Part shown: positions 15,711 to 38,467 of the stretch, piece after piece
How the letters are laid out: every line of letters begins with the position of its first letter
Position numbering within the stretch: position 1 is the stretch's first letter
From: Chryseobacterium sp. ERMR1:04
GTDB lineage: Bacteria; Bacteroidota; Bacteroidia; Flavobacteriales; Weeksellaceae
Direction of reading: 5' to 3'
Assembly (NCBI RefSeq): GCF_001297705.1
Contig: NZ_LIRF01000008.1
Coordinates: forward strand, 620,001-684,000
DNA: 64,000 bases
Position numbers and translations under genes: made by a program
The notes under the pieces: generated by a model
The model's database searches: none
The model's input: only the letters and a program-made list of their open reading frames with translations
Told to the model about the DNA's origin: nothing

Positions 15711-16406
15711 TTACACATTCCAGAACTCTCTATCTAAGCTTCTGTATTGTATGGCTTCAGAGATATGATGAGATAAAATATTTTGAGATTCTTCCAAATC
15801 GGCAATTGTTCGGGCTACTTTTAAAATTCGGTCAAAGGCTCTGGCGGAAAGATTCAGTTTTTCCATGGCTAATTTTATGAGATTAAAAGATGCTTTATCC
15901 AGTTCACAATATTTTTCAATTTCTTTGGGGCCAATTTGAGCATTATAACTAATTTCCAAATCTTTATATCGCTCCCCCTGAATTTCACGAGCAATTAAAA
16001 CACGCTTTCTTATATCTTCGCTCTTTTCTCCTTTCCGTTTTTCTGTTAGTTGCTCAAATTCAACTTTCTGAACTTCAATATGAATATCAATTCTATCCAA
16101 AAGAGGTCCCGAAAGTTTATTCATATACCGCTGCATTTCGTAAACAGATGAGGTATTGTTTGGATCGTCCGGGAAAAATCCGCTTGGGCTAGGGTTCATG
16201 GAAGCAACCAACATAAAACTAGCTGGATAATTTACCGTAAACCGCGCTCTTGAGATGGTCACTTCACGATCTTCCAAGGGCTGTCTCATTACTTCCAAAA
16301 CCGTTCTTTTAAATTCAGGCATTTCATCTAAAAATAAAACACCGTTATGCGCCAAAGAAATTTCTCCGGGCTGAGGATAACTTCCGCCCCCAACGAGTGC
16401 AACATC
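15711..16406 (-). pseudogene. comM: YifB/ComM-family Mg-chelatase-like ATPase, C-terminal half
   Basis: This is the second half of a gene whose first half lies 21 kb away. Reading in from the junction it gives TDVALVGGGSYPQPGEISL, then Walker B 'VLFLDEMPEF', 'REVTISRARFTVNYPASFML' and 'NPSPSGFFPDD', the AAA+ core and C-terminal domain of this family. No start codon lies at the junction; only an internal TTG offers one, and it would lack Walker A. Joined to the other half the protein would be about 513 residues, the normal length. ComM is a helicase that helps integrate DNA during natural transformation; this copy must be inactive. Confidence 0.93.
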
Positions 16407-16427
16407 TGTTACTTTCTTAAATGAGGG
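16400..16427. repeat. Left island junction (att site) with 27-bp repeat
   Basis: CAACATC here matches the CAACATC at the right junction, which marks the probable crossover core inside the split ATPase gene. The following 20 bases into the island recur near 17820. Confidence 0.75.
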
Positions 16428-16457
16428 GGCGTTATTTTATTTCTATATAAAATTGTA

Positions 16458-16488
16458 AAAGAGGTCTCCCTGCTTGGGAAACCTCTTT
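16458..16488 (-). terminator. Terminator of the collagen-like gene
   Basis: A 13-bp stem with one mismatch (AAAGAGGTTTCCC / GGGAGACCTCTTT read on the minus strand), a 5-base loop and a following TTTT. The rest of the gap between the junction and the collagen-like gene holds no gene. Confidence 0.7.
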
Positions 16489-16700
16489 ATACATTTAAAT
16501 TTTATTAGATGCTTTGTCTAATATAAGACAGTATTACACTTTGTCCTTGTAAGAAACATTATCTCTTCCAAAATTTCGAATATTTTTAATAATTTCGAAT
16601 TCGGATTATAGAATTATTCGAAAATTAGAATCAATATTTCAATCTTATTCCTCCTATCTATATCTAAATAATTAATGTTTATAAATAATGAGTTGATAAA

Positions 16701-17663
16701 TTATAAGGTATATTTTTGAACAGTCAATTTACCTGGCTCACCTGATTTCCCATCAATTCCCTTTACTCCGTCAGCACCATCAACGCCTTTTTTCCCTCGT
16801 CCCCTTTCAGCACTTAGACGTGAACAGTTTCCAGCATTTGAACCGCCTTCACCACCATCACCACCTCTTCCACCAATACCAATAACACCTGCCTCACCTG
16901 CTAAACCTTTTTCAGACGTTATATTAAAAAGATTTTCAGTCGAAGGGTTTTTATTAATATAATTTACAAAAAGGAATCCTCCATTACCTCCATTACCGCT
17001 ATTCCCGGCATTACCTCCGTTAGTTCCATTAGTTCCATCACTACCTCTTCCTGGACCTCTTCCGCATGAGCCCAAAGCACCGTTCCTTGCATTTGTTCCA
17101 TCGCTTCCTTTAATTCCATTCTTCCCAGGCATACCACTTCCTGCATTACCTCCATTTTGACCATTCAAATTAAGTATGATTGAACTTTCAATTTTGTCCA
17201 ATATAAAAAATTTCACTAGACCACCATTATCACCATTATCACCGCTTGTCCCATTTATATTCTGTTCGTTTCCATTTAAACCATTTTTCACAAAATATTG
17301 ATTGAACGATTGGATACTCGATTTATTGTCAAATTCAATTTTATTTGCGTACACTTCGAGAGAATTTCCATTCGTAATTATTTTAGTGTTTTCTAGCTTT
17401 AATTTCTCAATTGCGAATACAAATAGTGTATCTTTTTCTCTAATGTCACCAAGATTAAGTTCTACATTTCTAAGAATTAAGGTACCACTTTGATTTAACC
17501 TCTGATTTAATTCATTTAGTGTACTTAAAGTTACTGCATTAGTAATTTTTGAAGGAATATCGGTAAATTTAATTTTACCTGATAAAATCAGTATTTCAGT
17601 GTTTTGACAACAAAAGTTTGCAACTGCGAATACTGTGAATAAAAAAGTTGTTAAGATTTTCAT
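16701..17663 (-). CDS. Secreted collagen-like (Gly-X-Y) protein
   Basis: 320 residues with a signal peptide (about 1-19, ending NFCCQ). The Cys pair could alternatively be a weak lipobox. Residues about 25-125 form a beta-rich head ('TLILRNVELNLGD', 'LEVYANKIEF') recalling short beta-solenoids. From about residue 130 to the end the protein is Gly-rich with many G-X-Y triplets (GKNGIKGSDG, GVDGADGVKGIDGKSG) broken by GGNGG runs. It should be exported and fibrous; many such proteins are surface-adhesive, but no function is shown here. It lies alone between the left junction and the internal att-like repeat. Confidence 0.8.
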   Translation of the reverse strand: MKILTTFLFTVFAVANFCCQNTEILILSGKIKFTDIPSKITNAVTLSTLNELNQRLNQSGTLILRNVELNLGDIREKDTLFVFAIEKLKLENTKIITNGNSLEVYANKIEFDNKSSIQSFNQYFVKNGLNGNEQNINGTSGDNGDNGGLVKFFILDKIESSIILNLNGQNGGNAGSGMPGKNGIKGSDGTNARNGALGSCGRGPGRGSDGTNGTNGGNAGNSGNGGNGGFLFVNYINKNPSTENLFNITSEKGLAGEAGVIGIGGRGGDGGEGGSNAGNCSRLSAERGRGKKGVDGADGVKGIDGKSGEPGKLTVQKYTL

Positions 17664-17819
17664 AGCTGTTTTTTTAGTTTATGCTAAATTAATCATATTT
17701 ACACACAATCCGCATTAAATAATAGATAAAATTATTAATTCAATAACAAAAATCCTATTTAATTAAAAACAGAAAGACTTTACAATTGGGTAAAAGTTTT
17801 ACTAACCTCTAATTATATT

Positions 17820-17846
17820 AACATCTGTCACTCTCTTAAATGAGGG
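17820..17846. repeat. Internal att-like repeat
   Basis: 25 of 27 bases match the left junction segment 16401-16427 (differences at positions 10 and 14, both T to C). It separates the 1.4-kb collagen-gene unit from the rest of the island. This is the pattern left by two successive integrations at one site. Confidence 0.7.
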
Positions 17847-19475: not shown

Positions 19476-21500
19476 CTATAGTATTGGCTTTATTAAAGTC
19501 TCTTCAATCTTACTAAGTTTAAAGGTAATCCCGTCAGTTGAATCAGTAAAGGTTTTATCTGAATTTTCAAAGGATGCAAAAACAAAAACTTGTTGATTTT
19601 TGAACTTTGCTAACTCCTGAAGGAAGGTTTTAAAACTTGGTAAAGATATATCCTGTTGCTTTGGTTCATCAAAGATTAAAACTTGAGGATGGTTTCCTCC
19701 AAAAGCGACTGATGTTTTCATTAGAGAAATAGTATAAGACCAGATACAACGTATAAAATCACTTGCTGACGAATCAAACTTAATGTTATATAGACCGTCA
19801 ACAATTGGAAAATAAGTATCTCTTGATAGCTTAATGGCATCAAAACTTTTACTTTTGTAACCAAACTTTCTCAGATAAGAAATAAAATTTTCCTCAAAGT
19901 CTTTTATTTTTTGTTCATCTAGGGCGGATAGATTTAAAGTGGGTAACCCAGAAACGTCAGTCAAGAGTTTTCCATAACTATCAATTAAGGGTGAAAATTG
20001 GTTTTTGATATCTTCTAGTTTCTCAACTGCTTTACGGAAAAGGTTTACTCTCTGTGTTAAACTAAATTTTTTCTCGATTTGTATGATTGAAGGAATTCTT
20101 TCATCCTCTACTAATTCTTTTTTTAAATCTCTAATTTCTTTTCTTAAAATGTGAGCTTCATTTCTTAACTCTTCTGCCTGCTTCTGCTTATCCTGTATTG
20201 ATTTTTTTTGCCCATCAATGTAAATCTTAATCATACTTACTTGTGACTCTAGATAAGAAATATTATCTTCTAACCTCATTGGTGTATGGTTAATATCACT
20301 CGGCAATAAATCTTTTATCTCTTGGGAACATGTAGGACACTTATTTTCTGTAATTTTCAAATCATTTTTCGCCCCTAGTCTATTTAACTTTTGAACTCCC
20401 TTGTTCTTACGTAAATCCTCATTAATTGTTGCATGTTGTCTTTCAAACTGTACGAGCTTTGATTCCTCAACACTAATTTCTGGCAGAAGGATATCATAGT
20501 TGATATTAAATTTATTTAAGAGATTCTGCTTATCGTTAAGTAGTCTTTCATTTGCAGATATATTATCACCTACAGTCTCAAAGTTATCACTATAGCCAAG
20601 TAATTCGTTTTGTAGCTCGGAAAAGTAATCTTCAATTCGCAAGTCTCCTGCTTCTCTTTCTAAGATAAGTTTTATGTCGTTAATATTATTTATTAACTCA
20701 GGAGTCTGTTTAACTCCTACAATCTTTGTATTGGTTCTTTCTGCCAAAGATTCCAAGTCGTTAAAAGTCTTTTGCCAATCATTTTGAAGCTTATTTCTTC
20801 TAGTGTTAATTAACTCCTTTTTTTCATTATTTTCAAAAACATCAAGGTTAAGCAAAAATTCTACAATTCTTTGATTTAAATCTCTAATAGAGTATATAGG
20901 AGCTGTAATAAAGAAGTCACTCCAGCCTTTCTTTTGCTCAATGATAAATGCAGATGCTATCTGCTGAAGGTAAAGGGAAGTAAAATTACCATTATAGGTG
21001 ACAACTTTTGGAAGTTCTAAATTTATAAACTCACACAGGAAAGCATGAAAGCCAAAGTCATTGTCTGAAGCACCACCTTTATCATGAACCCACATCTGTT
21101 TTTGCTGAGTTATGTTTTCTGGCTCTGAAATATAATCACCATAATACACATCTATCAATTGTGACTTTCTATCGGGAACTCTAACCCCACGTCTTACTGT
21201 AATTACTTCACCAGATTGATTTTCAACTACAAGATATACAAAAGACTGTAAAATCTTGTATTGATTTTTTTCTCTGGGATACTCAACGGTATCTTTAAGT
21301 ACAGACTGTAGTGTCTTTTCAAACTTTCCTCCTAAAAGCTCTTCAAAACCGAGTGCATAAATGATTGACTGGAACAATGATGATTTACCTGCTGTATTGT
21401 TTCCTCGAATAATATTCAAACCTGATTCAAAAGTAAAGTCAGCTCCAAACAGACCTTTATCAGTATTTATTTCAACCTTTACACTATTTATTTTCAACAT
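19476..21500 (-). CDS. ABC-3C-type SMC/Rad50-like ATPase
   Basis: 674 residues. Walker A is GNNTAGKSSL (33-42), preceded by the Rad50/RecF-type 'FESGLNIIRG'. A long coiled-coil region (about 215-520) is broken by a CPTC motif (Cys388/Cys391), like half of a Rad50 zinc hook. Walker B is 'VLIFDEP' near residue 610, followed by KQQDIS. In ABC-three-component systems such an ATPase, coupled to a small middle component and an effector, is predicted to sense nucleic acid or phage. Its start overlaps the end of the middle-component gene by 17 bases, supporting a unit. Assignment by architecture and context. Confidence 0.82.
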   Translation of the reverse strand: MLKINSVKVEINTDKGLFGADFTFESGLNIIRGNNTAGKSSLFQSIIYALGFEELLGGKFEKTLQSVLKDTVEYPREKNQYKILQSFVYLVVENQSGEVITVRRGVRVPDRKSQLIDVYYGDYISEPENITQQKQMWVHDKGGASDNDFGFHAFLCEFINLELPKVVTYNGNFTSLYLQQIASAFIIEQKKGWSDFFITAPIYSIRDLNQRIVEFLLNLDVFENNEKKELINTRRNKLQNDWQKTFNDLESLAERTNTKIVGVKQTPELINNINDIKLILEREAGDLRIEDYFSELQNELLGYSDNFETVGDNISANERLLNDKQNLLNKFNINYDILLPEISVEESKLVQFERQHATINEDLRKNKGVQKLNRLGAKNDLKITENKCPTCSQEIKDLLPSDINHTPMRLEDNISYLESQVSMIKIYIDGQKKSIQDKQKQAEELRNEAHILRKEIRDLKKELVEDERIPSIIQIEKKFSLTQRVNLFRKAVEKLEDIKNQFSPLIDSYGKLLTDVSGLPTLNLSALDEQKIKDFEENFISYLRKFGYKSKSFDAIKLSRDTYFPIVDGLYNIKFDSSASDFIRCIWSYTISLMKTSVAFGGNHPQVLIFDEPKQQDISLPSFKTFLQELAKFKNQQVFVFASFENSDKTFTDSTDGITFKLSKIEETLIKPIL

Positions 21501-21975
21501 ATTGTAATTTCCATTGTTTAGTCATTTCGTCAATTCTACTATCCGTAATTTTATTCTTACCAACAAATTTTAAAAACTCTACTTCTTTAGTAAAACTTTC
21601 ACTTTCAATTATTGAATTGTAAAATGATTCTCCTTTTTCTGTTAATTTATATTTTTTTGTACTTGTCATTTCACAGAGTCCATCAGCAACAGCAAACTGT
21701 AGCGCCCTGTTAAGTGCTGGCTCAATGTTCCAAACTTCAATCTCCTTTTTGTAATTACTTATTATATAATTTCGCATCACATTCATGTTGCTATCAGATT
21801 TCAGTATCCAAGAGAACAAATGTAGCTTTAGTAATGTTGAAGCGTTGTCTCTACAGCACAATTTTAGAACAAGTATAATTATCGAAATTTTGTACAATGG
21901 ACGATAATCTACTGGAATTGGTATTGGTCTTTGAGTAAACTTTAAGTGCTGTATGTTAATATCTTTGTCATTCAT
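21484..21975 (-). CDS. ABC-3C middle component-like protein
   Basis: 163 residues, cytosolic and mostly helical. It opens with 'RPIPIPVDYRPLYKISIIILVLKLCCR', a helix typical of the middle component, followed by a winged-helix-like part ('YKLTEKGESFYNSII'). Size, position between the effector-like gene and the ATPase gene, and the overlapping reading frames fit the middle component, which is thought to link ATPase and effector. Not a strong sequence match that I can quote, so part of the call rests on the gene order. Confidence 0.75.
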   Translation of the reverse strand: MNDKDINIQHLKFTQRPIPIPVDYRPLYKISIIILVLKLCCRDNASTLLKLHLFSWILKSDSNMNVMRNYIISNYKKEIEVWNIEPALNRALQFAVADGLCEMTSTKKYKLTEKGESFYNSIIESESFTKEVEFLKFVGKNKITDSRIDEMTKQWKLQYVENK

Positions 21976-21977
21976 AA

Positions 21978-22901
21978 CTATTCGAATTCAATTGGGCATC
22001 TCAAAATCCAATCTGCAAGTACTTGATTTGTTAATCTTTCAATAGTTGTTTCATCTAAATATGGAAAACTTGAAGCTATTTTTGCTTTCAAATCAACAGA
22101 GATTTTTTCATAGAGTGTGTTACTATCTGAACTATTTGTTATACACATTTCTTCCACTTTTTCTTCATATTGGCTAATAATACGAACAAACTTCTCATAG
22201 TCATCGGGAAAGGAAGACTGTATTTTACTTAACATAAGGTTACCGTTCAAAAAATATGAAATTGTAAGAGAGGTTAGTTTATTTATCTTTTCTTCTCTTC
22301 TAGGTACATTAGCAGAAACCCTATGAGTATTTTTTCTATTAGCAGTTTGTACCAAGGAAATACTACTATTCTTCCATCTTTCCTGATTTTCTGTGGACTC
22401 AGGGATATGATTTACTTCAACTTTTCTACCATTAAAACCAACCACGTAAGGGATTTGCTCTGCAAAGAAACCCAAATCTTGAACAAAGACATCAAAATCT
22501 GAATCAAGTATATCTAAAGACATTGCTCTATATTCTTCTGCCTTATCTCTACAATGTTTAACGAGTTCTTTATTTTTGTAACCAGGTGTAACTAAAATCC
22601 ATTTTTTGATTTTAGTATCCTTCAAATACTTTTTTAAATCCTCCTTCTTGGCATCAAGCTTTTTAAGGTCTTTAGTAATTTTGTCTCTTTGCTTTTCATA
22701 AAGTATTGATGGTTCGTACTCTTCATCGGGGCAATAGCACTGAAAAACGACACCGTCACGTGTAAAACCCTCAATACCTAAATCCCCTTGCCAAGCAGTA
22801 AGCTCTTGATATCCAACATTTTCATACTTCAACTTAAAACAAGTTTGACAAAATGCTTCCCATGAGTTTCCATCAAAACTACCATATTCGGTTTTGTACA
22901 T
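21978..22901 (-). CDS. REase-like effector of the ABC-3C-like module
   Basis: About 307 residues from the ATG of MYKTEYGSF; an upstream in-frame ATG would add 14 AT-encoded residues. The N-terminal domain has restriction-endonuclease-like features: 'GNSWEAFCQTCF', then 'GDLGIEGFT' (acidic, metal-site-like) and 'VVFQCYCPDEEY', where Q replaces the usual ExK acid. A K/D/E-rich helix and an 'IKKWILVTPGYKNKELVKHC' strand follow. The C-terminal ~100 residues are helical. First gene of the three, so a nuclease effector is inferred; the catalytic residues are not certain. Confidence 0.7.
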   Translation of the reverse strand: MYKTEYGSFDGNSWEAFCQTCFKLKYENVGYQELTAWQGDLGIEGFTRDGVVFQCYCPDEEYEPSILYEKQRDKITKDLKKLDAKKEDLKKYLKDTKIKKWILVTPGYKNKELVKHCRDKAEEYRAMSLDILDSDFDVFVQDLGFFAEQIPYVVGFNGRKVEVNHIPESTENQERWKNSSISLVQTANRKNTHRVSANVPRREEKINKLTSLTISYFLNGNLMLSKIQSSFPDDYEKFVRIISQYEEKVEEMCITNSSDSNTLYEKISVDLKAKIASSFPYLDETTIERLTNQVLADWILRCPIEFE

Positions 22902-23447
22902 ATCGAAATAATAATTTTTTATAAAAATAATTAAATAATTCAATGTAATGATAGAAAAAATAATTAATACTCTACAATCATTATCACTTATTGAAAAGCA
23001 AGGATTTTATTTACAAGATATGATGACGCACATCCCTTTTTTTATTAAAATCTTTACAATGCAACAAGTTAAGAAATAAAAATATTTTTAAAATACGGGA
23101 AACCGTAATCAAGTCATTTTATGTCTAGGCAATCCAATTTCTTGTTCTTGGGGATATGGTTTTCTAAACGTCATACCAATATCCTCCCTCATATTTGTTT
23201 GGGTTCTTTGAGCCATTTCTTTATCAGGGGAGTATCTTGGGTCTGGAATAAATGGCATTTTCGCCATTTTTTTAATAGTTATGAGATTGAATGGAAAGAC
23301 ATTCTAGAAATTTGGGAATTTGCTGGAAGTGTTAACAAAAAGGAACTTGAAACTCCCAGCAACAATTTTGAAGAAATAAAGATAATGTTCAAAGCTTTAC
23401 AAAATGAAATTAAATCATTGCATTGTCCTTAATCCAAAATTCATTAA
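22902..23447. other. AT-rich gap with doubtful small ORFs
   Basis: This gap between two minus-strand genes has a 43-codon plus-strand frame (22948-23079, 'MIEKIINTLQSLSLIEKQG') and a 103-codon frame (23121-23432) that ends in a plausible helical stretch ('WEFAGSVNKKELETPSNNFEEIK'). The first part of the longer frame is rich in Phe, Trp and His with unlikely composition. They may be pieces of one decayed gene. I do not call either as real. The promoter of the ABC-3C-like genes should lie at the left edge. Confidence 0.3.
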
Positions 23448-24752
23448 CTAGGTCGATTGAAAGATTTTTTCAAACCTATCTCTCTTAATGAATCCAGGAA
23501 TAATTTCTACATTAAAATCTGTATCTGACATAAGAAGTATTGATTTAATTGCATCAAGGCTATTAATCACCTCCTCCATCATCATAAATTCGTCATATGT
23601 GATAATGAAACATATTTTTTCATATTCATTAGTAGAAGTACGAATCTGATTTAATATTTGTGAAACTCTAGATTTCAAATTACCAATACTAGTAAAATCA
23701 ATTATTTCAAAACCTATCCTGCCTCTTCCATTTTCAACTTTTATTGATATTCTGGGAAAACCAATATTATTAATGCTGATTAGATTCTGATATTTATAGT
23801 TATCCCTTATCCACTGTACAATTTTAGATTGAATATCAGATTTATTAAAGGTTAATGAATCTGAATGTAAAGTTTCTTGTTCCTCATGCTCTAATTCCTT
23901 AACGACTTTCTCATCTACTCCATATAATTCTAAAAGTTCAGAAAGTTTAATGATACTAAATGTTTTACCAGGAGCTTTACCTCTGAACTCAGCAGTTAAT
24001 TCAAATTTAGGATATAAACTCTGTTTCTCACTTTGATAAAACCAATCTTTCTTTTCATCACCAGATATAAAAATTATATCTTTTGTATGTTTCTCAGCTA
24101 GCTCTAGAATAGTAAACCATATTAATAAATCACCAATCCCTCCATCTTCTTTGTTTCTATCCTCATATCCAGGAGGAATTTTATTTTCATATCTATACTC
24201 TAGCTCTTTTTTTATTTTTACCTCATCCAATTCAATATCATAGATTACTTCATCCGTAAACAAGACTTTGTAAAGCTGGCTTACTGGGTCATTCCAAGAC
24301 CATTCCTTAACATGTTCAACAACTTTTCCTAGTTTATCGGAATATTCTGTCAATAGAGAATTAATTTCTTTTTCTTTTGAAAACAATTCATCGTATTCTT
24401 TTATTCCATTTAATAATGGGTATTTACCTATCTTTAATGTTGGAATACTAGTTCTACTTTTTGTTAATTTTTGAAAGACTTCTTTAATTTTTTCAGGTCT
24501 GATTCTGGCAAACTCTCGTGCGACTTGTCCTGGGATGAAAAACCTTTTCTCTCGAATAATTTTTGTATAAACCTTTTTTAGTTCATCGAGACTTTCTGAA
24601 CTTGTTGTATAAGGTAGTATCAAAGAGTTTGTATCAAATACAAAAAGACAATCATTTTTTATTTCAGAGATAGGTCTTCCTGATACAGCAAAAATATCTT
24701 TTGCATTTGGAAAAATCTTATTTATGATAAACATATCTTTATCACCACTCAT
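23448..24752 (-). CDS. PIN-like (PIN_8 type) domain protein
   Basis: 434 residues. The N-terminal PIN-like domain carries Asp40 in FVFDTNSL, Glu80 in 'IPGQVAREFARIR', Asp208 in 'GGIGDLLIW' and Asp232 in 'FISGDEKKDWF', the pattern I associate with the PIN_8 family. The C-terminal ~150 residues (after an acidic linker near 275) form an alpha/beta domain that I cannot name. It is probably an RNA- or nucleotide-targeting effector in a defence setting. It stands alone between the ABC-3C-like module and the ardA operon and is transcribed toward the former. Confidence 0.8.
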   Translation of the reverse strand: MSGDKDMFIINKIFPNAKDIFAVSGRPISEIKNDCLFVFDTNSLILPYTTSSESLDELKKVYTKIIREKRFFIPGQVAREFARIRPEKIKEVFQKLTKSRTSIPTLKIGKYPLLNGIKEYDELFSKEKEINSLLTEYSDKLGKVVEHVKEWSWNDPVSQLYKVLFTDEVIYDIELDEVKIKKELEYRYENKIPPGYEDRNKEDGGIGDLLIWFTILELAEKHTKDIIFISGDEKKDWFYQSEKQSLYPKFELTAEFRGKAPGKTFSIIKLSELLELYGVDEKVVKELEHEEQETLHSDSLTFNKSDIQSKIVQWIRDNYKYQNLISINNIGFPRISIKVENGRGRIGFEIIDFTSIGNLKSRVSQILNQIRTSTNEYEKICFIITYDEFMMMEEVINSLDAIKSILLMSDTDFNVEIIPGFIKRDRFEKIFQST

Positions 24753-25050: not shown

Positions 25051-25082
25051 TTTGGTGCATTTAAAAAAAATGTGTATATTTG
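25051..25082 (+). promoter_or_regulatory. Promoter of the ardA operon
   Basis: TTTG, a 20-base spacer, then TATATTTG: a near-ideal Bacteroidetes -33/-7 pair. The transcript start should be near 25089, leaving a leader of about 70 bases before ardA. Confidence 0.7.
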
Positions 25083-25095
25083 AATTAATAAAAAA

Positions 25096-25123
25096 GCCTT
25101 GGTGTGGTGGTACACAACAAGGC
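25096..25123 (+). promoter_or_regulatory. Leader hairpin of ardA mRNA
   Basis: GCCTTG pairs with CAAGGC and, inside it, GTGT with ACAC, across a two-base bulge and a six-base loop. It lies in the first 35 bases of the predicted transcript. It could affect stability or translation; no T run follows, so it is not a terminator. Confidence 0.4.
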
Positions 25124-25160
25124 AAATCAATAAATTTTAACGTTACTAAAATTATCGACT

Positions 25161-25703
25161 ATGGCAAAGTTACAACATTGTCTTCAAAGTGCCTGCATTT
25201 ATGTGGGAACGTATCGCAAGTACAACAATTCAAGTTTGTACGGAAAATGGCTAAATCTTTCGGATTATTCAGATTATGACGAATTAATTACTGCAATGTA
25301 TGAATTGCACTCTGATGAAGAAGACCCCGAATTTATGTTTCAGGATTATGAAACCCCAGAATTCTTTATCAATCAAGGCTTAATAAGTGAAAGCTATATT
25401 TCAAAGGACATTTACGAGGTAGCCGAACAAATCGACAGTTCAGACTATGATTTCGAGGTTATAGAAGCTTATGCGGAGTGCATGAGCTACTACCATAAGG
25501 AGGTGGAAGACCTTTTGGAGAGTCTTTCAGATTCTTATTATGGTAAATTTGATTCAGATGAAAATTTCGTTCAGGAAATGTTAGAACAAGATGGTAGCAT
25601 TCCCGAAAATTTACCCTCATACATTTACATTGACTGGACTTCTACAGCAAGACATCTAATGTATGATTATTCAACCTCAAACGGGTACTATTTTAGGAAT
25701 TAA
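25161..25703 (+). CDS. ardA: Antirestriction protein ArdA
   Basis: 180 residues, the usual size, with strong net negative charge. The start 'ACIYVGTYRKYNNSSLYGKWLNLSDYSD' and 'DPEFMFQDYE' are ArdA hallmarks. ArdA mimics bent B-form DNA and blocks type I restriction-modification enzymes, which helps mobile DNA enter a new host. It is the first gene of an operon with a resolvase and a polymerase-like gene, behind a good promoter, so it would be made early after entry. Confidence 0.93.
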   Translation: MAKLQHCLQSACIYVGTYRKYNNSSLYGKWLNLSDYSDYDELITAMYELHSDEEDPEFMFQDYETPEFFINQGLISESYISKDIYEVAEQIDSSDYDFEVIEAYAECMSYYHKEVEDLLESLSDSYYGKFDSDENFVQEMLEQDGSIPENLPSYIYIDWTSTARHLMYDYSTSNGYYFRN

Positions 25704-25749
25704 CAACAACCTTGCACCCTGTTATCAGGGTGCTTTAAACCTTAATCAA

Positions 25750-26346
25750 ATGAAAGCAAGATATGTAAGGATTTCCACAGGAAATCAAAACTCACAAAGA
25801 CAGTTACAAAAGAACCACCCCGATGAAAAACTCTACATTGACACCATTAGTGGGGCTACGCCATTCAGCCAAAGACCAGAGGGAAAAAAAATGCTCGAAG
25901 ACATAGAAGATGGCTTAATAGACTATATAAGTGTGCATTCCATAGACCGATTGGGAAGAAATCTATTTGATATTTTAACCACTTTAGAGCTTCTAAATGA
26001 AAAGAAAATTGTTTTAGAAGTTGATAATCTTGGATTAAAAAGTTTAGTCAATAATAAGCCTAATTCTGCTTTTAAATTGATTATATCGGTTATGGGAAAC
26101 ATCGCTGAAATGGAACGGAATACGCTATTAGAAAGACAGAGAGAGGGAATTGCATTAGCAAAAGCAAAGGGAGTTTACAAAGGTCGCGAATTAGGCTCGA
26201 AAGAAACAGACGAAGAGGTTTTGGATAAATATAAAGATGTTGTCAAATACCTAAGGAAAGGACAATCTTTAAGAAATACAGCTAAACTGTGTAATGTTAG
26301 TCTGGGGACTGTACAAAAAGTAAAAAAGATTTTAAATAAAAATTAA
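25750..26346 (+). CDS. Small serine recombinase (resolvase/invertase)
   Basis: About 198 residues from MKARYVRIST; the open frame extends 29 codons further but overlaps ardA. The resolvase catalytic domain shows 'YVRISTGNQNSQRQL' with the nucleophile Ser, 'SIDRLGRN' and 'MGNIAEMERNTLLERQREGI'. A C-terminal helix-turn-helix ('QSLRNTAKLCNVSLGTVQKV') binds DNA. Likely roles are resolving dimers of a circular form or inverting a segment. Its stop overlaps the next start (TAATG), so the two are translationally coupled. Confidence 0.9.
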   Translation: MKARYVRISTGNQNSQRQLQKNHPDEKLYIDTISGATPFSQRPEGKKMLEDIEDGLIDYISVHSIDRLGRNLFDILTTLELLNEKKIVLEVDNLGLKSLVNNKPNSAFKLIISVMGNIAEMERNTLLERQREGIALAKAKGVYKGRELGSKETDEEVLDKYKDVVKYLRKGQSLRNTAKLCNVSLGTVQKVKKILNKN

Positions 26347-28211
26347 TGATTGAAAACACATCACCTAAGGCATTATCTAATTATGAGTTAATGCTTTTAA
26401 TTCCCGCAAGTATTAATATTGAGGAGTTGGCTAATTCGGTAGTTTCTGAAAATACTGAGATAGAATTTAATAAATTATTATCTCTTATAAACTTAATTGC
26501 AACCAAAACAGTCACCTATAATACTGATAAAAATAGGTATTACACATCTAAAAAAAGAAATATACACAGTAATGATTTAAAAAAATGTTGTGGAAATAAT
26601 TATAGAATATATTACGATTTCCTATTCAAACTAAACATTCTCTCAAAAAGAAGCCCATTTAATAATGAAATAAGAGGTGAACATTTTGGGTACGGCTTTA
26701 CCAAGTCTCATTCTTATCAAAGGTTAAAACTAATAGAGGTAAGCAACTTAAAACCAGTCAATTTTGAGAAAAAATTCGATAATGCTTATGTGAAAAATTT
26801 TGAGAAAATTTTATACAAGCTTTTTGATAGGACTAAATTCTCAATCGATTTTAATCTGGCAGAGGAATTGTTGTTTTGTAAGTATTTGGAAAAAGTGAAA
26901 TTTCCTCTTGATTCAGATATAAAAATTGATTGGAGAAAATATTCTGCATATCATGGAGCATTAAAACAATTGGTAAAGTTTTTTAATGGTCAACATAAAT
27001 TTAATAGAGAACATAAACAATTTGAAAAGAAACCATCTGGTAGATTCTATTCTCCATTGACTATATTAAATAAAACCACACGAAGTTTACTATTTTATGA
27101 AGGTAAAAAGTTACAGCAGTTAGATGTAAAAAATATGTTTCCTTATTTATTATCACAGTATTTACAGAAAACGGCTGTTTTAGACTCACATAGGATTGAA
27201 AGGCTGAAAAATTGCCCAGCATTTGAGGCTAAATATAAATTAAATACTATTTCATACACAACTAAAGGTTATCTTCCGAACCAATGGTTAGAACAGTTCC
27301 TCGTAGAAAGATATGGAACTTTGTTGGTAGCTAAACCAATGTTACAGGTTACAAACGGGAGATTAGTCCAGCAAGTTTCTAACAAATACTTTTTTTTAGA
27401 TAAACCTAAAAGTTTGTTTCAGGATAGTTGTAACCACTTTCAGAATTCTAATAAAAAATTTTATTCCCCTTTTCTTAACAATTCACAAAAGGGGAACTGG
27501 AATCACAATGGCTGGAAATCAAAAAGTGAAAGGGAAACCCCAAGTAGCATTTATCCCAATAGTTACAATCAAACTAAGGGATTACATACTAATTCCCATT
27601 TGGTTACACATTATACTGAAACATTTAATGGTTTAAACTCAGTAAATCAGTTAAGCCCTGAGATAAAGCCTCCCTCTTACTATATCTCGACCAGAATCCT
27701 CAAAACCCTTATGAATAAAGAGATTCACAAATTTAACACACTCACCACTAAGGGAGTTATATATGATTATTTTATTGACCTTTTCAAGGGGAAATCCACT
27801 TTAATAGAATGGGCAACAGACTATCAAAGACTATTTAATGAGGTTTACAATTATTTACCTGAGCAAGACAGAGCATTAACAAAAAGCCTTTTTATTTCAA
27901 TGCTTTATGCTCAAAACAACCGTTACATAGAAGAGCAGGAAGTTTTTAAATCAGAATTCCCAATCCTATATGATTTAATAAGAGAAAAGAAAAAAGGGAA
28001 TCACAAAATCATTTCTCATGAGCTATTCGATTTAGAGGCTGAACTCATTGTTGATAAGGTTGCAAGAGGCTTAATAAAGAAAAAGATTCCAACCTTTACC
28101 ATACATGACTGCATTGCTGTACAAGAGGAAAATATTGAAGTCTCAAAGTTAAAGATGAAAGATGCATTTATTTCAAGGTTCGGGAGTTGCCCACAAATTA
28201 AGTTGGAATAA
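26346..28211 (+). CDS. Divergent family-A DNA polymerase-like protein, putative replication protein
   Basis: 621 residues. I do not recognise a named family, but polymerase-A palm motifs can be traced in order: motif A 'LQQLDVKNMFPYLL' with Asp260; a motif-B-like helix R509-x3-K513-x3-I-x3-Y521 ('RALTKSLFISMLYA'); an 'FDLEAELIVDK' helix; and motif C 'FTIHDCIAV' with Asp588. Between A and B lies a ~190-residue insert rich in Ser and Asn. The N-terminal 200 residues are basic and probably bind DNA. The link with a resolvase suggests replication of an excised circle. The polymerase call is an inference from motifs. Confidence 0.65.
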   Translation: MIENTSPKALSNYELMLLIPASINIEELANSVVSENTEIEFNKLLSLINLIATKTVTYNTDKNRYYTSKKRNIHSNDLKKCCGNNYRIYYDFLFKLNILSKRSPFNNEIRGEHFGYGFTKSHSYQRLKLIEVSNLKPVNFEKKFDNAYVKNFEKILYKLFDRTKFSIDFNLAEELLFCKYLEKVKFPLDSDIKIDWRKYSAYHGALKQLVKFFNGQHKFNREHKQFEKKPSGRFYSPLTILNKTTRSLLFYEGKKLQQLDVKNMFPYLLSQYLQKTAVLDSHRIERLKNCPAFEAKYKLNTISYTTKGYLPNQWLEQFLVERYGTLLVAKPMLQVTNGRLVQQVSNKYFFLDKPKSLFQDSCNHFQNSNKKFYSPFLNNSQKGNWNHNGWKSKSERETPSSIYPNSYNQTKGLHTNSHLVTHYTETFNGLNSVNQLSPEIKPPSYYISTRILKTLMNKEIHKFNTLTTKGVIYDYFIDLFKGKSTLIEWATDYQRLFNEVYNYLPEQDRALTKSLFISMLYAQNNRYIEEQEVFKSEFPILYDLIREKKKGNHKIISHELFDLEAELIVDKVARGLIKKKIPTFTIHDCIAVQEENIEVSKLKMKDAFISRFGSCPQIKLE

Positions 28212-28537: not shown

Positions 28538-28822
28538 ATGAAACATTTATTTCTTGCAGTTACAACTGCATTCGTTATCACTTCATGTGGAGCTATTTCC
28601 AGAGGAACAACAGGAACAACTGAAAGTAAACTAATTAAAATCGTATCGGTTGAACAGGGCTGTCCTGTTGAAAACATTAAGATTATTGACAAAGTTAAAG
28701 GTATGGGAAGTGGGTCTTATGCCTTAGAAGTTTGTGGTAAACGAATGGTGTACAAACAGGCTGGGACAACCTTTATGGAGTCTTCAAAAATGCAAAATAT
28801 TATGCAAAGTGTAGGAAACTAA
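28538..28822 (+). CDS. Small lipoprotein
   Basis: 94 residues with lipobox VITSC. The mature part (about 75 residues) has two Cys (GCPVENI and LEVCGKR) that may form a disulfide, and the pattern 'QGCPVENIKIIDKVKGMGSGSYALEVCGK' suggests a small alpha/beta domain. First of four plus-strand genes with short gaps. Function not recognised. Confidence 0.75.
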   Translation: MKHLFLAVTTAFVITSCGAISRGTTGTTESKLIKIVSVEQGCPVENIKIIDKVKGMGSGSYALEVCGKRMVYKQAGTTFMESSKMQNIMQSVGN

Positions 28823-28834
28823 AATCCAAACAAG

Positions 28835-29242
28835 ATGAAAAAGATTTTATTTACACTTTTTATTGGGATGTCTTTCATTGGGTGTTCCAATAATGATGAT
28901 GACAATACTGTTCAGCAAACCAACCCTGTAAATACCCAATACTTCCACGTGCCTAATTGGATAATAGGAAGTTATAAGATTTCTGGTACTTCCACAAGTT
29001 ATTTTATTTTTGAGGATGATGATTTTATACTGGTAACTCCTTACACCAGCTACAAAACTGTATTAGAACAGGCAAAATCAGCAGGGCAAACAGCAAAGGT
29101 TGATGAGACAATAACAGATACTGATTATAACTTTGTTATTACAGCAGGTGCTTCCAGTGGCTCTTATAAATTTAAAAAGATTAGTGCTACTAAAATACAG
29201 TGGATAAACGGAATTAACAACATTACTTTAGACAAAGAATAA
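28835..29242 (+). CDS. Small lipoprotein
   Basis: 135 residues with lipobox SFIGCSNNDDD, the Asp-rich stretch after Cys being typical of Bacteroidetes lipoproteins. The rest is beta-rich ('YKISGTSTSYFIFEDDDFIL', 'KFKKISATKIQWING') and resembles short lipocalin-like or META-like folds, without a clear match. The gap to the previous gene is 12 bases, so the two are co-transcribed. Function unknown. Confidence 0.75.
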   Translation: MKKILFTLFIGMSFIGCSNNDDDNTVQQTNPVNTQYFHVPNWIIGSYKISGTSTSYFIFEDDDFILVTPYTSYKTVLEQAKSAGQTAKVDETITDTDYNFVITAGASSGSYKFKKISATKIQWINGINNITLDKE

Positions 29243-29261
29243 TAATTTAAAATCACTGAAT

Positions 29262-29696
29262 ATGAAAAAGTTATTATTACTTTCATTTATCACGTTTTCC
29301 TCCTTTTTATTCTCTCAAAATGATTATAATTCTGCTTACAAAGAGGGTTTTGGAGATGCCTTGTGTTATAAAAAAGGAAGTTATTGCCAACGAAGAGCAC
29401 CTTACGATAGTAATATACCTCTTCCAAATTATAATGAGAAAGCTGATTATTCAACAGGTTATATAAAAGGAATTATTGATGGTTTTAAGTATAGAAATTC
29501 AGAAGATAGAACTAACTATGATTTTTCTGATTACATGGACCAAATACTTCAAAGAAAAATCGAAAGTAGAAGACGTACCGTTGAAAATTATGAAAAATAC
29601 TTAGATGATGATTTGAGGTCAAGGCATCCAAGACCCAAAGACTCGAGACAAGCAGAAATATATGACAAAATAATGAGTAATGACTTGGATTATTAA
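29262..29696 (+). CDS. Exported small protein
   Basis: 144 residues with signal peptide MKKLLLLSFITFSSFLFSQ. The mature part has 'YKEGFGDALCYKKGSYCQRRAP' with two Cys and 'YSTGYIKGIIDGFKYR', a Gly-containing helix pattern found in small secreted Flavobacteria proteins. The C-terminus is charged and Arg-rich. It overlaps the next gene by 17 bases. Function unknown. Confidence 0.7.
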   Translation: MKKLLLLSFITFSSFLFSQNDYNSAYKEGFGDALCYKKGSYCQRRAPYDSNIPLPNYNEKADYSTGYIKGIIDGFKYRNSEDRTNYDFSDYMDQILQRKIESRRRTVENYEKYLDDDLRSRHPRPKDSRQAEIYDKIMSNDLDY

Positions 29697-30522
29697 TTTA
29701 AAAGTCAAGGTAATCGGTAATGTTTACGATAAACTTCACAATTGGTTATTTCCAATAGATGAGTACGCAAGGGATATTGTTACTATTCCACGTTATAACT
29801 ATATTAACTCTGTACCTTTTCAAAAGGTTGTATTAGATTTTTTAGCTTGGAAAGGAATTGATAAAAAGGGAAATATAACCAGTAACAGAGTTTATCCAAC
29901 TCATATTGAAATTCTGGAAAACCAAACAGCACTTGCAAAATGTGGATTTTCAACGGGTAAATATATTGAGAAACTTGTAGTTTCTGAGTTTCTAGAAATG
30001 AAGGAAAGAATACCCGATTTGAATCCAGTATTGTTTGCTCATTTTCTTGATGATAGCTACCATAATTCAAAACTTACTAAATTCACCAATTTAGAGGCTC
30101 AAAAATCAAACCAAACAACGAAGGAGTATTACGATAGATTAAAGGCTTTTTTAATAGAAATTCAAAGCTTTTTCGAGGTCGAGGATTTAAGAACCAGAAT
30201 TGAATGCAATCATACTGAAAACCAAAACTTAGGAAACAGCTTTAAATATGAGGAATTTATAACAGCTTTTGCAAAGATTGATTTGAACTGTGATGAGTTA
30301 GGCAGATTTAGCATGACTTACTTTATAAATCCACATCTAAAGGAACTTATAGGGGAATCTTTGGGGGATACTCTAGAAAAAAGATTTGAAGAGCTAACCA
30401 ATTGTAAAATGGAAGGTTTTATAAAAATGGTTCCTTTAAATCGTAGATATGATAAATGGTTTAAAGAAATTCAGACTATTCCAAATTATAAAGTAACTGT
30501 TACAGAACAAAATTCTTTATAA
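29680..30522 (+). CDS. Hypothetical protein
   Basis: 280 residues with no signal peptide or membrane segment, mostly helical. I recognise no family. The start is uncertain: the ATG used here overlaps the previous gene, and the next good Met is much later. A terminator follows, so it closes the four-gene run of small lipoprotein and exported genes. It could be a cytosolic partner of them or an unrelated cargo gene. Confidence 0.6.
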   Translation: MTWIINLKVKVIGNVYDKLHNWLFPIDEYARDIVTIPRYNYINSVPFQKVVLDFLAWKGIDKKGNITSNRVYPTHIEILENQTALAKCGFSTGKYIEKLVVSEFLEMKERIPDLNPVLFAHFLDDSYHNSKLTKFTNLEAQKSNQTTKEYYDRLKAFLIEIQSFFEVEDLRTRIECNHTENQNLGNSFKYEEFITAFAKIDLNCDELGRFSMTYFINPHLKELIGESLGDTLEKRFEELTNCKMEGFIKMVPLNRRYDKWFKEIQTIPNYKVTVTEQNSL

Positions 30523-35630: not shown

Positions 35631-37574
35631 TCATTTTTTATCAAATCTACTATTTACAGCATTCAAATGTCCTTCAAATACAGAAGTGAACCACTCTTCT
35701 GCTCCTTTATTTTTATATCCCTTATATTTTTCTACAAACAAATTATAAAGTGAGGCTTGCTTATCTAGTACATAGATGTTAAGTCCAGAATCATTACACA
35801 GCCAATGAGGATTTAAATCGTAAAACTCTATAACTTTCTCAAGAGTCCAACTTCTTATTTCACCATAAGGAATAAATGTGTTTTTAATAAATTCAAGACC
35901 ATGTCCATGGTCAAAATGTGGTTTTAATAATATTCCATTTTGAGTGTGAAGACTTTGTTCGTTCATGTCTTCAAAACTTACAATATACTGTATTTCTGAA
36001 CCTACAAGTTTTCTAATTGCTCTGTCTCTAAAAGAAAATAGATAACCATTTTTAACCCTAAAAATATATTTCTCCTTTACTATCTCGTTCTTAAACCCAA
36101 TCTCTAAAGAATAGCAATTAAGGAATTCAGGCGTCTCATTGTATGCAACAATTATTTTATCAATATATTTATGTACAAGATTCATTTTAATCTCAAAATC
36201 AGTCTCCAGAGAATATTTTTTGAAATCTTCCTTCGTCTCAATAATTAAGCTTTCAAAATCTTTCAAATTAGATGTTCTCAAGTCAATTTCTGAAATTTGA
36301 AGTTTAATTTTGCTATTTTCATTCCTAATCTTTTCTATTTCAGGCTTAACCTCATCATTAGTAAGTACATCATTCATAACAGACCTTATTAAGCTTTGTT
36401 TGCCTTTTTCATTGTTTTCTAACTTTTTTTCCAAAAGTTCTCTTTCAACTAAAAGATTTTCCAAAATCGAATTTCCTGAATTTGAAGCTTCATTTAAAAG
36501 CTTTAAAAGCTCATCCTTTATAAAGAAATGCTCCCAAATGATGTTTTCAATTTTATCAATATTTATGGCTCTATTTCCACAGTTTTCGCCCTTGATTCTT
36601 CGTGATGAGCAAATATAAGTATGGTCTCTTTTATCAACCCTACTTCTACCATACATATTTCTCCCACAACTACACTTAATAATACCTTTTAGTAAATATT
36701 TATGCTCAACTTTCTTTCCAGTATTGTTTCTATTCTTTTGTAAATTTTCATTGACTTTTTGCCAATAAACATCCTCAAAAACTGCTGGAACTTTATAGTA
36801 ATTGCCTTTCCAAAATCTCTGACCTTTGTAAATTGTATTTTTAATGATTCCCTGTACGGTTCTCCCTCTCCATTTAGCATCACTCTTTTTCTTTTCAGTT
36901 ACAACATTAGAATATCTATCTCTGATTTTGTAAACACCTCCTTTTTCTAATTTACTATAAGCTGTTAGTACTCCTTCTAAGTTTAGTATTTCAGCAATTT
37001 TATCTGTTCCTTTACCTTCTAAGGACATTTGATAAATCCTTTTCACAGTTTCCGATTCTTTTTCATTGATAATCAAATTTTTATTAGAGTCCTTAGTGTA
37101 ACCAAATGGAGGGCTGGCATGAACTTTTCCACTTTCAACATTCTTTTGTAATGCATTTACAACCTTTTGCTTTGTTAACTTAACAAAAAATGAATTAAAA
37201 ACGGATAGGACATTTGAAGCAAGAAAATTGTCAGGGGAATCAAAATTGAATTCTCCTCCTGAATGAAAATAGAGTTTAGTATCATTTTTTTGGAAAAGTA
37301 ACCATAAACTATTCCAAACAATATGGTCTCGTTCAATTCTTGATTGGTCATAAGCAAAAACATTGGTGATTTCTTTTGCTTCAATATCTTCTATTAATCT
37401 AAATAGTTCAGGACGTTTCTCTATCGGTAATGTTCCAGAAACACCAACATCTTGATAAATTTTGTAACTTAAATTTAATTTCTTTGCATACTCTTTTCCA
37501 AAATGAATTTGGTTCTCTATTGAACTTAGATTATCCCCTTTGTCCTGAGAGAGTCTTGCATAAATAGCTAACAT
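35631..37574 (-). CDS. Large serine recombinase (integrase)
   Basis: 647 residues. Resolvase-type catalytic domain first ('YARLSQDKGDNLSSIENQ', nucleophile Ser in ARLS; 'VSGTLPIEKRPELFRLI'; 'YDQSRIERD'), then a recombinase domain ('PPFGYTKDSNKNLIIN', 'IIKNTIYKGQRFWKGNYY'), a zinc ribbon ('IKCSCGRNMYGRS' ... 'ICSSRRIKGENCGN') and a coiled coil (about 370-440). The long C-terminal extension of ~150 residues is not typical. Such enzymes integrate at specific attB sites and need a directionality factor to excise. Its start lies 46 bases inside the right island end, so this is the island's integrase. Confidence 0.93.
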   Translation of the reverse strand: MLAIYARLSQDKGDNLSSIENQIHFGKEYAKKLNLSYKIYQDVGVSGTLPIEKRPELFRLIEDIEAKEITNVFAYDQSRIERDHIVWNSLWLLFQKNDTKLYFHSGGEFNFDSPDNFLASNVLSVFNSFFVKLTKQKVVNALQKNVESGKVHASPPFGYTKDSNKNLIINEKESETVKRIYQMSLEGKGTDKIAEILNLEGVLTAYSKLEKGGVYKIRDRYSNVVTEKKKSDAKWRGRTVQGIIKNTIYKGQRFWKGNYYKVPAVFEDVYWQKVNENLQKNRNNTGKKVEHKYLLKGIIKCSCGRNMYGRSRVDKRDHTYICSSRRIKGENCGNRAINIDKIENIIWEHFFIKDELLKLLNEASNSGNSILENLLVERELLEKKLENNEKGKQSLIRSVMNDVLTNDEVKPEIEKIRNENSKIKLQISEIDLRTSNLKDFESLIIETKEDFKKYSLETDFEIKMNLVHKYIDKIIVAYNETPEFLNCYSLEIGFKNEIVKEKYIFRVKNGYLFSFRDRAIRKLVGSEIQYIVSFEDMNEQSLHTQNGILLKPHFDHGHGLEFIKNTFIPYGEIRSWTLEKVIEFYDLNPHWLCNDSGLNIYVLDKQASLYNLFVEKYKGYKNKGAEEWFTSVFEGHLNAVNSRFDKK

Positions 37575-37620
37575 ACAGTTGTTTTTCTACAAATATATAC
37601 AAACACCACATTCTATACAA

Positions 37621-37627
37621 CAACATC
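37621..37627. repeat. Right island junction (att core)
   Basis: CAACATC, also present at 16400-16406. Outside it lies the intact 5' half of the ATPase gene; inside lies the integrase promoter region. Confidence 0.7.
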
Positions 37628-38263
37628 AGAAATCGTATGATGGGGTGATCTAAAAGGCCGAACAGTCATTAATGAAGTTTCTGTTCCCATTTTTCCGGCG
37701 ACAGAATGAATTTTTGTTGTTTCTAAGGCTTCTTTTAATGTTAAAGGAGGTAAAATACTGGGAACTCTTTTCGCCAACATTGTTTTTCCGCTTCCCGGTG
37801 GGCCAATTAAAATAATATTATGACCTCCCGCAGCAGCCACTTCCATTGCCCGCTTTGCTGTTTCCTGTCCTTTTACTTCTGAAAAATCAAAAGGAAATAA
37901 ATTCACTTTATCCTGAAACTCTTTTCTGGTATCTAAAACTACTTTTTCAAGAGGTTTCCCTTCATTAAAGAAATCAATAACCTCTTTAATATTTTCAACG
38001 CCATACACATCAAGATTATTAACAATAGCTGCCTCGCGCGTATTTTGTTTGGGTAAAATAATCCCTTTGAAACCTTCTTCCCTCGCCTGAATCGCAATTG
38101 GAAGAACGCCTCGGATAGGCTGTAAACCTCCATCTAATGAAAGCTCACCCATAATAATATAATCCTGAATATTTTCAGCTAAAATCTGATCAGAAGCCGC
38201 TAAAATTCCAATCGCAATACTCAGATCGTAAGCAGCCCCTTCTTTTCGGAGATCGGCAGGTGC

Positions 38264-38467
38264 CATATTGATGGTGATTTTCTTTCCGGGAATCTTGAAA
38301 CCAACGTTTTTTAAAGCAGCCGAAATTCGGTAACTGCTTTCTTTAATTGCATTATCGGCAAGGCCTACCAAATGATAACCTACCCCGCCTGTATCTACAT
38401 TCACTTCAATAGTAATTGTCTGAGCTGCAACTCCATGAATTGCACTTCCATAAATTTTGATCAGCAT
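38264..38467. repeat. 204-bp direct repeat of comM 5' end, copy A
   Basis: Differs from 39485-39688 at one base (a silent AAA/AAG-type change). Similarity falls off quickly both upstream of the ATG and beyond codon 68. Confidence 0.95.

Follow-up and report, generated by a model that had tools for sequence, protein, structure and literature searches.

Among mobile elements, those with a polymerase of their own have been classed around family-B enzymes, as in pipolins, casposons and polintons (PMC7385651). Pipolins are integrative, encode their own polymerase, target tRNA genes, are bounded by direct terminal repeats, use tyrosine recombinases and bring along a variable cargo that includes restriction-modification genes (PMC7385651). 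The same features are shared by elements carrying relatives of POL, a 621-residue protein encoded in a 64-kb stretch of Chryseobacterium sp. ERMR1:04 DNA (the window, meaning the whole stretch analysed). Our comparisons support POL and a site-specific recombinase as the core genes of small Bacteroidota elements, whose other genes are exchangeable and often consist of anti-phage cargo. While the defining polymerase of pipolins is of family B and primer-independent, POL has a predicted family-A fold preceded by an N-terminal winged helix, and POL elements are on that account not pipolins (PMC7385651).

Known family-A polymerases (Pol I, Pol theta, apPOL, T7) have in common with the POL model a palm, fingers and a thumb, the order of the motifs and a pair of aspartates. 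POL differs from them by its winged helix, the lack of an exonuclease domain, a motif C reading HDS or HDC and a position outside PF00476. A 2026 census of bacterial polymerases names the family-A groups PolA1, PolA2, PolA3 and PolA1-like; the POL family is not among the groups named in the consulted passages of this census, whose rules (PSI-BLAST at 1e-5, HHpred over 90%) would probably miss it (PMC12926913). No published description of the POL family or of its elements was found in searches of an open-access collection of papers. Two BFVD entries match POL over nearly its full length, namely the unnamed 409-residue A0A516L5C2 (E 2e-18, target TM 0.69) and a 403-residue 'Putative DNA polymerase I' from a marine phage (E 2.5e-13, target TM 0.62). 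The other BFVD rows are weak, among them the 435-residue 'DNA polymerase' of Rheinheimera phage Barba31A (E 2.3e-3, target TM 0.32). At the edge of detection, phrog_4756 matches the POL C-terminus in 7/12 POL genomes (E 0.002-0.05).

Two described islands resemble POL elements. The IntY/AlpA islands at the tmRNA site of Pseudomonas share a tyrosine integrase, direct repeats and defence cargo with them and, like them, have no autonomous transfer genes; they excise and are transduced by a jumbo phage (PMC12595487). They differ by phylum and site, and the word 'polymerase' occurs 0 times in the main text of that paper. The 10K island of Riemerella, a member of the same bacterial family, sits at a tRNA gene and encodes a tyrosine integrase found by the same profile (E about 2e-51), and its excision as a circle was shown by PCR (PMC6764341). 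We considered this island as an experimentally excised POL element and rejected it, as POL is absent in the two genomes examined.

Predicted fold and conserved motifs of POL

The first-pass annotation had read POL as a family-A polymerase by tracing motifs A, B and C, and D260, R509, K513, Y521, H587 and D588 are indeed found where it placed them, with the three motifs in order (Table 1). Conservation was assessed in an alignment (A4) of 79 rows, made up of the window POL plus 78 relatives taken from the 86 with 385 residues or more that viral and genome scans had yielded. The eight others, truncated, fused or near-copies, were left out (loci L051, L068, L074, L075, L094, L110, L115 and L116). 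An N-terminal alignment (A7) omits 13 of these 79 rows, and L011, whose match covers just residues 19-98 and lies in an unrelated frame, was excluded from all alignments. D260, K513, H587 and D588 are each present in 79/79 rows and R233 in 78/79. Position 509 is R in 71 rows, K in 7 and E in 1; at position 521, 62 rows have F and 17 have Y (motif B form R-x3-K-x7-Y/F). The residue that follows H587-D588 is S in 72 rows, A in 4, C in 2 and N in 1, where PolA has HDE; T7 RNA polymerase, too, has a Ser at this third place. Both catalytic aspartates and the motif B lysine are also invariant in two other alignments (11/11 and 20/20 rows), in which the single exception at H587 is an F in L008. The conservation of motif A is partly selected, since the genome scan for relatives used the motif A pattern only and the viral scan motifs A and C; motifs B and C were not selected in the genome scan. 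Five positions after the motif A aspartate (D+5), where PolA has its steric gate, the family has Q, F, V or I.

Similarity searches with POL gave 0 Pfam families at E values up to 10 and 0 NCBIfam matches in the copies searched, one chance-level match among PDB sequences, and one weak match in PHROG to phrog_4756, a family of unknown function (positions 384-430/440, E 0.0095; not full-length). An AlphaFold model was obtained from 79 sequences; 271 of its residues have a pLDDT of at least 90, while 165, mostly in the insert discussed below, fall under 50. Using VIA-align 2, this model superposed best on Pol theta (Z 14.2, 3.6 A, 257 residues), and further matches were apPOL, the Taq, T7 and Bst DNA polymerases and yeast mitochondrial RNA polymerase (Z 12.9). 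Among the 50 structural rows listed, 48 are family-A DNA polymerases and 2 are yeast mitochondrial RNA polymerase, families missing from this list not being thereby excluded. The superposition, at 10-15% identity, spans residues 147-621 and would bring D260 and D588 next to each other in space. The fold prediction and superposition suggested by the first-pass annotation agree with its reading of the protein, and they speak only indirectly against the refuting condition that it set, a fold holding the two aspartates apart.

The profile-profile comparison that it also suggested agrees in score, though not in probability, as discussed below. Compared by hhalign with a profile of 20 Bacteroidota PolA plus T7 DNA polymerase, the POL family profile scores 31.0, a value reached by 0/39 column shuffles (maximum 22.3), while the reversed profile scores 16.0. 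In the resulting alignment (profile led by L062), motifs 1, A, B, the Q helix and motif C line up with those of PolA: D-I-K-N-S-Q-P falls near D-Y-S-Q-I-E-L-R, R-x3-K on motif B, L-L-Q-x2-E-S on the Q helix and I-H-D-S on V-H-D-E.

Modelled alone, the N-terminus of POL is predicted to form a winged helix, for which the fold search returned mostly winged-helix proteins, the best being the Orc2 winged helix (Z 7.3); other matches include Fur, TubR and the Rep initiators 4pt7 (Z 6.0) and 5kbj (Z 5.4). Only the fold is claimed for this domain because all Z values are under 8. In the model it stands in the place of the exonuclease domains, none of which is predicted in POL. These results support the view of POL as a compact member of the family-A polymerase superfamily, predicted to consist of a winged helix followed by thumb, palm and fingers. 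The earlier claim is retained as regards the predicted fold, motifs A, B and C and the island setting. POL is not the isolated novelty that it was taken for, however, but represents a single clade of a wider family, whose members occur throughout Bacteroidota and also in some tailed phages.

An insert of ~190 residues had also been proposed; it is smaller, about 150 residues (296-446), in frame and predicted to be disordered. It is present only in the window's own clade and absent from relatives outside it. An intein or intron was considered and rejected, as the single Rfam match is far under its cut-off (E 0.96) and the frame is open in 5/5 clade members. Searching the insert DNA in 171 genus genomes gave 7 matches: the window's own, 3 POL relatives and 3 short ones (23-46 bases). 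Purifying selection on POL is supported by dN/dS values of 0.08-0.29 in 13 pairs. The insert has a dN/dS of 0.62 in comparison with L026 and 0.42 with L027, versus 0.17 and 0.13 for the rest of POL. Its synonymous divergence is lower, with a pS of 0.33 versus 0.57 for the rest with L026 and 0.38 versus 0.64 with L027. The insert also holds short conserved stretches, as if DNA or short peptide motifs were constrained.

Integrative elements built around POL and a recombinase

With the window POL as query (E <=0.001), matches were found in 45/173 genus genomes and 11/395 phylum-wide genomes, where the window's own genome contributes to both figures and one phylum-wide match (L011) is probably spurious. 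A motif A scan of 84,980 species genomes yielded 133 POL relatives, 80 of which are listed; the 76 of these that are long enough for a tree are all labelled Bacteroidota. In a quick tree, the clade grouping the window and L026-L029 has a support of 99. The window's genome carries a second, far-diverged POL (L045, 7131-8621) with a tyrosine integrase and a helix-turn-helix (HTH) protein nearby, probably a second element of that genome.

Some POL members belong to tailed phages, since four IMG/VR contigs (L046, L048, L049 and L050) encode POL together with portal, terminase or tape-measure genes, and five huge-phage records (595-735 kb, two of the same length) match the phage-contig POL of L050. 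On a contig akin to a 595-kb phage (L055, 7245-9694), POL is followed by a gene matching a PHROG DNA polymerase. A Tenacibaculum POL (L074, 8971-11031) has a GIY-YIG/NUMOD1 homing-endonuclease-like part at its C-terminus. The one plasmid record found with POL is from Hymenobacter, where POL is annotated as a hypothetical protein.

A tyrosine integrase of one family, detected with a profile built from these POL loci, lies within 3 kb of POL in 59/80 and within 9 kb in 65/80 named loci, as well as within 9 kb in 13/20 genus loci and 2/11 IMG/VR contigs. Ten genomes, together ~39.4 Mb, contain 63 integrases of the same profile, so that chance proximity would account for only a few per cent. A small HTH_17 protein is encoded within 3 kb of POL in 39/80 named loci, and a pair made of an AAA_24 ATPase and DUF3871 occurs with POL in 16/80; DUF3871 is mentioned in one paper of the open-access collection searched. 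A second layout was observed (L090, L092, L096, L097, L099, L100, L104, L109-L111 and L117), in which POL lies opposite AAA_24 and DUF3871 and the integrase is on the other side of POL, near a tRNA gene.

Many Flavobacteriaceae loci display the order tRNA-Ser, integrase, HTH, POL. The 13-mer end of tRNA-Ser occurs twice on the same contig and strand, 11.2-24.1 kb apart, in 14/17 genomes, and the reversed-pattern control in 0/17. In the three genomes without a same-contig pair, L065 has one copy and L059 and L083 have copies on two contigs. Five elements at tRNA-Met or tRNA-Asp are likewise bounded by repeats (12.3-18.8 kb), and one element at tRNA-Arg has a 27-bp repeat 11.5 kb away. The five tRNA-Met or tRNA-Asp elements come from a second search over 10 loci, whose pattern fitted the own tRNA of L090, L096, L109, L110 and L111 and gave same-contig pairs in 5/5, the pair of L111 with a mismatch; the pattern could not fit L092, L097, L099, L104 and L117. 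POL lies between the repeats in 19/19 loci that have a same-contig pair, the arrangement of pipolins, whereas the window copy resides in comM with a large serine recombinase.

A recent transfer of a POL element between hosts is supported by the loci of Algibacter marinivivus (L075) and Flavobacteriaceae bacterium NBU2973 (L115), which share 12,521 bp at 99.9% identity, from just before the tRNA gene to the end of the compared sequence. Their repeats are both 21,623 bp apart, and a stretch of host flank is only 76.7% identical. L063 has only 3.5 kb in common with L065 (93.6%) and L066 (96.6%), from the tRNA gene to the POL stop codon, followed by divergence, with an additional host-flank match at 74% between L063 and L065. 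Because these three loci differ after the POL stop, integrase, HTH and POL form the core and the rest is exchangeable.

The cargo was scanned as 49 proteins of at least 250 residues (set A5), encoded on the strand of POL; they come from 47 loci, with one protein standing for each shared cluster. Of their 61 Pfam families 25 are shown, and among the most frequent are type III restriction (5), GmrSD (3), N6 methylase (2) and UvrD (2). A defence-library scan of the cargo matched 477 families, 25 of these shown, and 9/10 proteins picked as likely defence have a match, among them type I, II and III restriction-modification proteins and a Snf2-type helicase akin to DrmD. Some tRNA-Ser elements (e.g., L063, L067, L073) instead encode FUR, receptor-like and DKTGT-motif proteins after POL, the DKTGT motif being that of P-type ATPases. 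The 728-residue protein beside POL in these metal-cargo elements was considered as the ATPase and rejected, for it lacks DKTGT and is receptor-like; the motif is in a neighbour of ~650 residues.

Replication and other possible roles of POL

We infer with moderate confidence that POL is the replication polymerase of these integrative elements, which would thereby be a family-A counterpart of pipolins with a putative polymerase activity and episomal replication. A large serine recombinase would have put the ~21-kb island of the window into comM. Once the element is excised by its recombinase, or has entered a new cell, POL would synthesise its DNA, the winged helix binding the element DNA while the palm polymerises, and the small serine recombinase may resolve multimers of the excised circle. 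In such a scheme, polymerase activity, a DNA product, origin binding, circle replication and the resolvase role are all presumed. POL is a directly testable candidate polymerase, and its predicted winged helix suggests element-specific or primer-independent initiation. A phylum-wide group of family-A type would show that the lifestyle of elements with their own polymerase arose more than once, and POL elements would give a name to the carrier of many Bacteroidota defence islands.

Several observations weigh against this role or against the polymerase fold on which it is founded. Neither PF00476 (DNA_pol_A) nor any Pfam polymerase family was found in 10 POL relatives. Foldseek ranks family-A polymerases first for the POL model only weakly (E 0.02, TM 0.16), and the hhalign probability of the comparison with PolA is only 2-4%. 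As single sequences in hhalign, T7 RNA polymerase scores 20.9 and 22.1 and T7 DNA polymerase 17.1 and 18.5, all at shuffle level. Such an integrase is missing from the 9 kb around POL in 15/80 named loci, a number of which lie on short contigs, and in 7/20 genus loci; in two of the latter (L026 and L028) one is encoded farther away. Iteron-like repeats are not enriched near POL (11 in 88 kb versus 10 in 106 kb), and iterons were dropped as a sign of an origin. An annotated replication initiator of its own is present on the Hymenobacter plasmid that carries POL, for which reason an argument from this plasmid as a sole POL replicon was dropped, and the gene after POL in L055 matches another DNA polymerase family; POL therefore need not be the main replicase there. 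Finally, no POL was found at the integrase-primer loci of the two Riemerella genomes examined, and since that island, which lacks POL, is reported to excise (PMC6764341), an integrase of this kind can carry out excision in its absence.

POL could act as a second-strand or gap-filling polymerase that completes a single-stranded or damaged incoming element, without replication of an episomal circle. Transformation, transduction or mobilisation are the entry routes proposed. The Pfam families shown for the 49 cargo proteins (25 of 61) include neither a relaxase nor a capsid family, which fits such a role, as does the AAA_24 and DUF3871 set found with POL in 16/80 loci, a recombination-like set with a resemblance to Sak4. 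An element-specific initiator would nevertheless account at least equally well for the winged helix and the linkage to an integrase, and we regard gap filling as unlikely. Somewhat less likely still is a single-subunit RNA polymerase transcribing the genes of the element. A motif C reading HDS or HDC instead of the HDE of PolA would suit it (T7 RNA polymerase has HDS), and so would the superposition of yeast mitochondrial RNA polymerase. That enzyme has a near-equal Z value, and the hhalign scores of the T7 enzymes, weak in both cases, lean slightly towards the RNA polymerase, so the product may be either DNA or RNA. The R-L-H-T-x-L-T-N stretch before motif A nevertheless resembles PolA motif 1 in the hhalign alignment, and position D+5 is not Gly, the residue of T7 RNA polymerase. 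The predominance of DNA polymerases among the structural rows (48/50) also argues against transcription, in part reflecting which structures are solved.

The location of POL among defence genes would also be expected of a defence or abortive-infection polymerase carried as cargo, in the manner of defence-associated reverse transcriptases. Yet in three loci the cargo switches right after the POL stop codon while integrase, HTH and POL stay constant, and some elements have FUR, receptor-like and DKTGT proteins in place of defence genes, making a defence role very improbable. That POL is a catalytically dead relative which binds DNA and regulates excision seems hardly credible: it would account for a winged helix of DNA-binding type, for the frequent replacement of the motif B Tyr by Phe and for Ser or Cys at the place of the motif C Glu, but no row of the three alignments departs from the two aspartates or the motif B Lys (79/79, 11/11 and 20/20) and the POL core is under purifying selection.

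If POL replicates its elements, a bolder and rather doubtful extension would be a one-protein replicon, in which the winged helix recognises an element-specific origin and POL starts synthesis without a separate primase. Were this true, integrase and POL would make up a complete mobile replicon, an independently arisen counterpart of piPolB that spreads defence genes phylum-wide.

The island in comM and the genes around POL

The setting proposed for POL, a module within an integrated island, is confirmed by the interruption of comM (also called yifB) and by a serine recombinase at the same site in another genome. The uninterrupted comM of L159 overlaps both split parts by the same seven bases, CAACATC, and as comM is split between 16406 and 37621, the island is about 21.2 kb long (Table 1). 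A search for the comM C-terminus in 9 genus genomes revealed a long open frame in 7 and a short one in 2 (genomes G469 and G430). G469 encodes a 67%-identical large serine recombinase at the same comM site, with the POL module in the same ~16.7-kb island, while in G430 the two comM parts stand side by side. The large serine recombinase is the probable integrase of the window island; L026, L028 and L029 have a tyrosine integrase ~6-16 kb from POL instead.

Table 1. Position of the features discussed, in window coordinates.
Feature	Position	Strand	Basis or remark
comM/yifB, 3' part	15711..16406	-	alignment with uninterrupted comM of L159
Left junction core CAACATC in comM	16400..16406	.	alignment with L159
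27-bp near-copy (93%) of left comM junction	17820..17846	.	possible second att site
Lamassu system LmuB, LmuC, LmuA, island cargo	19476..22943	-	PADLOC E 6e-108, 5e-28, 1e-32
PIN_8-domain protein adjoining ardA	23448..24752	-	PF18476, E 8.7e-39
Bacteroidota-type promoter TTG-N20-TATATTTG, 5' of ardA	25052..25082	+	exact-pattern scan
ardA, antirestriction protein, 180 residues	25161..25703	+	PF07275, E 4.5e-20
Small serine recombinase/resolvase	25753..26346	+	PF00239, E 1.1e-26
POL, 621 residues, predicted winged helix and family-A-like polymerase	26346..28211	+	open reading frame, AlphaFold model, motifs
Predicted winged-helix domain of POL, ~residues 6-137	26361..26756	+	AlphaFold model of residues 1-150, fold search
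POL motif 1 region, R233 ... T239 ... R246	27042..27083	+	compared with PolA G-R-L-S-S-x-x-P-N-L-Q-N
POL motif A, D260-x-x-N-x-x-P266	27123..27143	+	D260, N263, P266 each 79/79
POL in-frame insert, residues 296-446, predicted disordered	27231..27683	+	most residues pLDDT <50
POL motif B, R509 ... K513 ... Y521	27870..27908	+	A4 counts
POL motif C, H587-D588	28104..28109	+	79/79
Four open reading frames 3' of POL (94, 135, 144, 280 residues)	28538..30522	+	clustering of neighbour proteins
Large serine recombinase (Resolvase, Recombinase, Zn ribbon)	35631..37574	-	domain search
Second TTG-N20-TATATTTG promoter, 5' of large serine recombinase, other island end	37590..37620	-	
Right junction core CAACATC in comM	37621..37627	.	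alignment with L159
comM/yifB, 5' part	37621..38467	-	alignment with uninterrupted comM of L159

The gene order given by the first-pass annotation, a promoter followed by ardA, a small serine recombinase and a TAATG-coupled open reading frame (ORF) of 621 residues, was recovered at the same positions, the POL ATG overlapping the recombinase stop codon. The promoter it had placed 5' of ardA is of Bacteroidota type, following the consensus of this phylum; exact matches to TTG-N20-TATATTTG number 2 in the window versus 0.13 expected, and the ardA genes of L026, L027 and L028 are also preceded by a similar site. A sigma-70 promoter was discarded in favour of this type, as the window scan gave no excess (18 found versus 18.0 expected). 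A terminator scan of the window (3 found versus 1.6 expected) was not used as evidence. The small serine recombinase has 197 residues from its probable start at 25753, the mechanically called ORF opening at 25663 (227 residues); its best NCBIfam name is that of an Mpi-type invertase, far under the cut-off of that model.

Among the loci compared, just a few from Chryseobacterium and Kaistella show this ardA-resolvase neighbourhood of POL; a tyrosine integrase and an HTH protein are its more frequent partners. Downstream of POL, relatives of the 135- and 280-residue ORFs are found in 4/4 close relatives (L026-L029). Compared in 200-base bins, the window matches L028 at 98-100% identity through ardA and the resolvase, as far as ~26.2 kb, and L026 at 98-100% across the genes at 28.6-30.2 kb, whereas POL in between is 60-90% identical to L026 or L028. 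POL alleles thus seem to have been exchanged, since near-identical flanks surround a divergent POL.

Judging by the near-copy of the left junction at 17820, the unit integrated last may extend from 17.8 to 37.6 kb. This near-copy, 1.42 kb inside the island, is perhaps the remnant of an earlier integration; a gene for a glycine-rich protein lies between the two copies (16401-17846). Near the target, the segment 39485-39725 is ~87% identical to a comM segment of L159 and also aligns with the start of the window comM, a partial duplication. The PIN_8 protein (23448-24752), possibly a nuclease or defence gene product, is also encoded in the close relatives L026 and L028.

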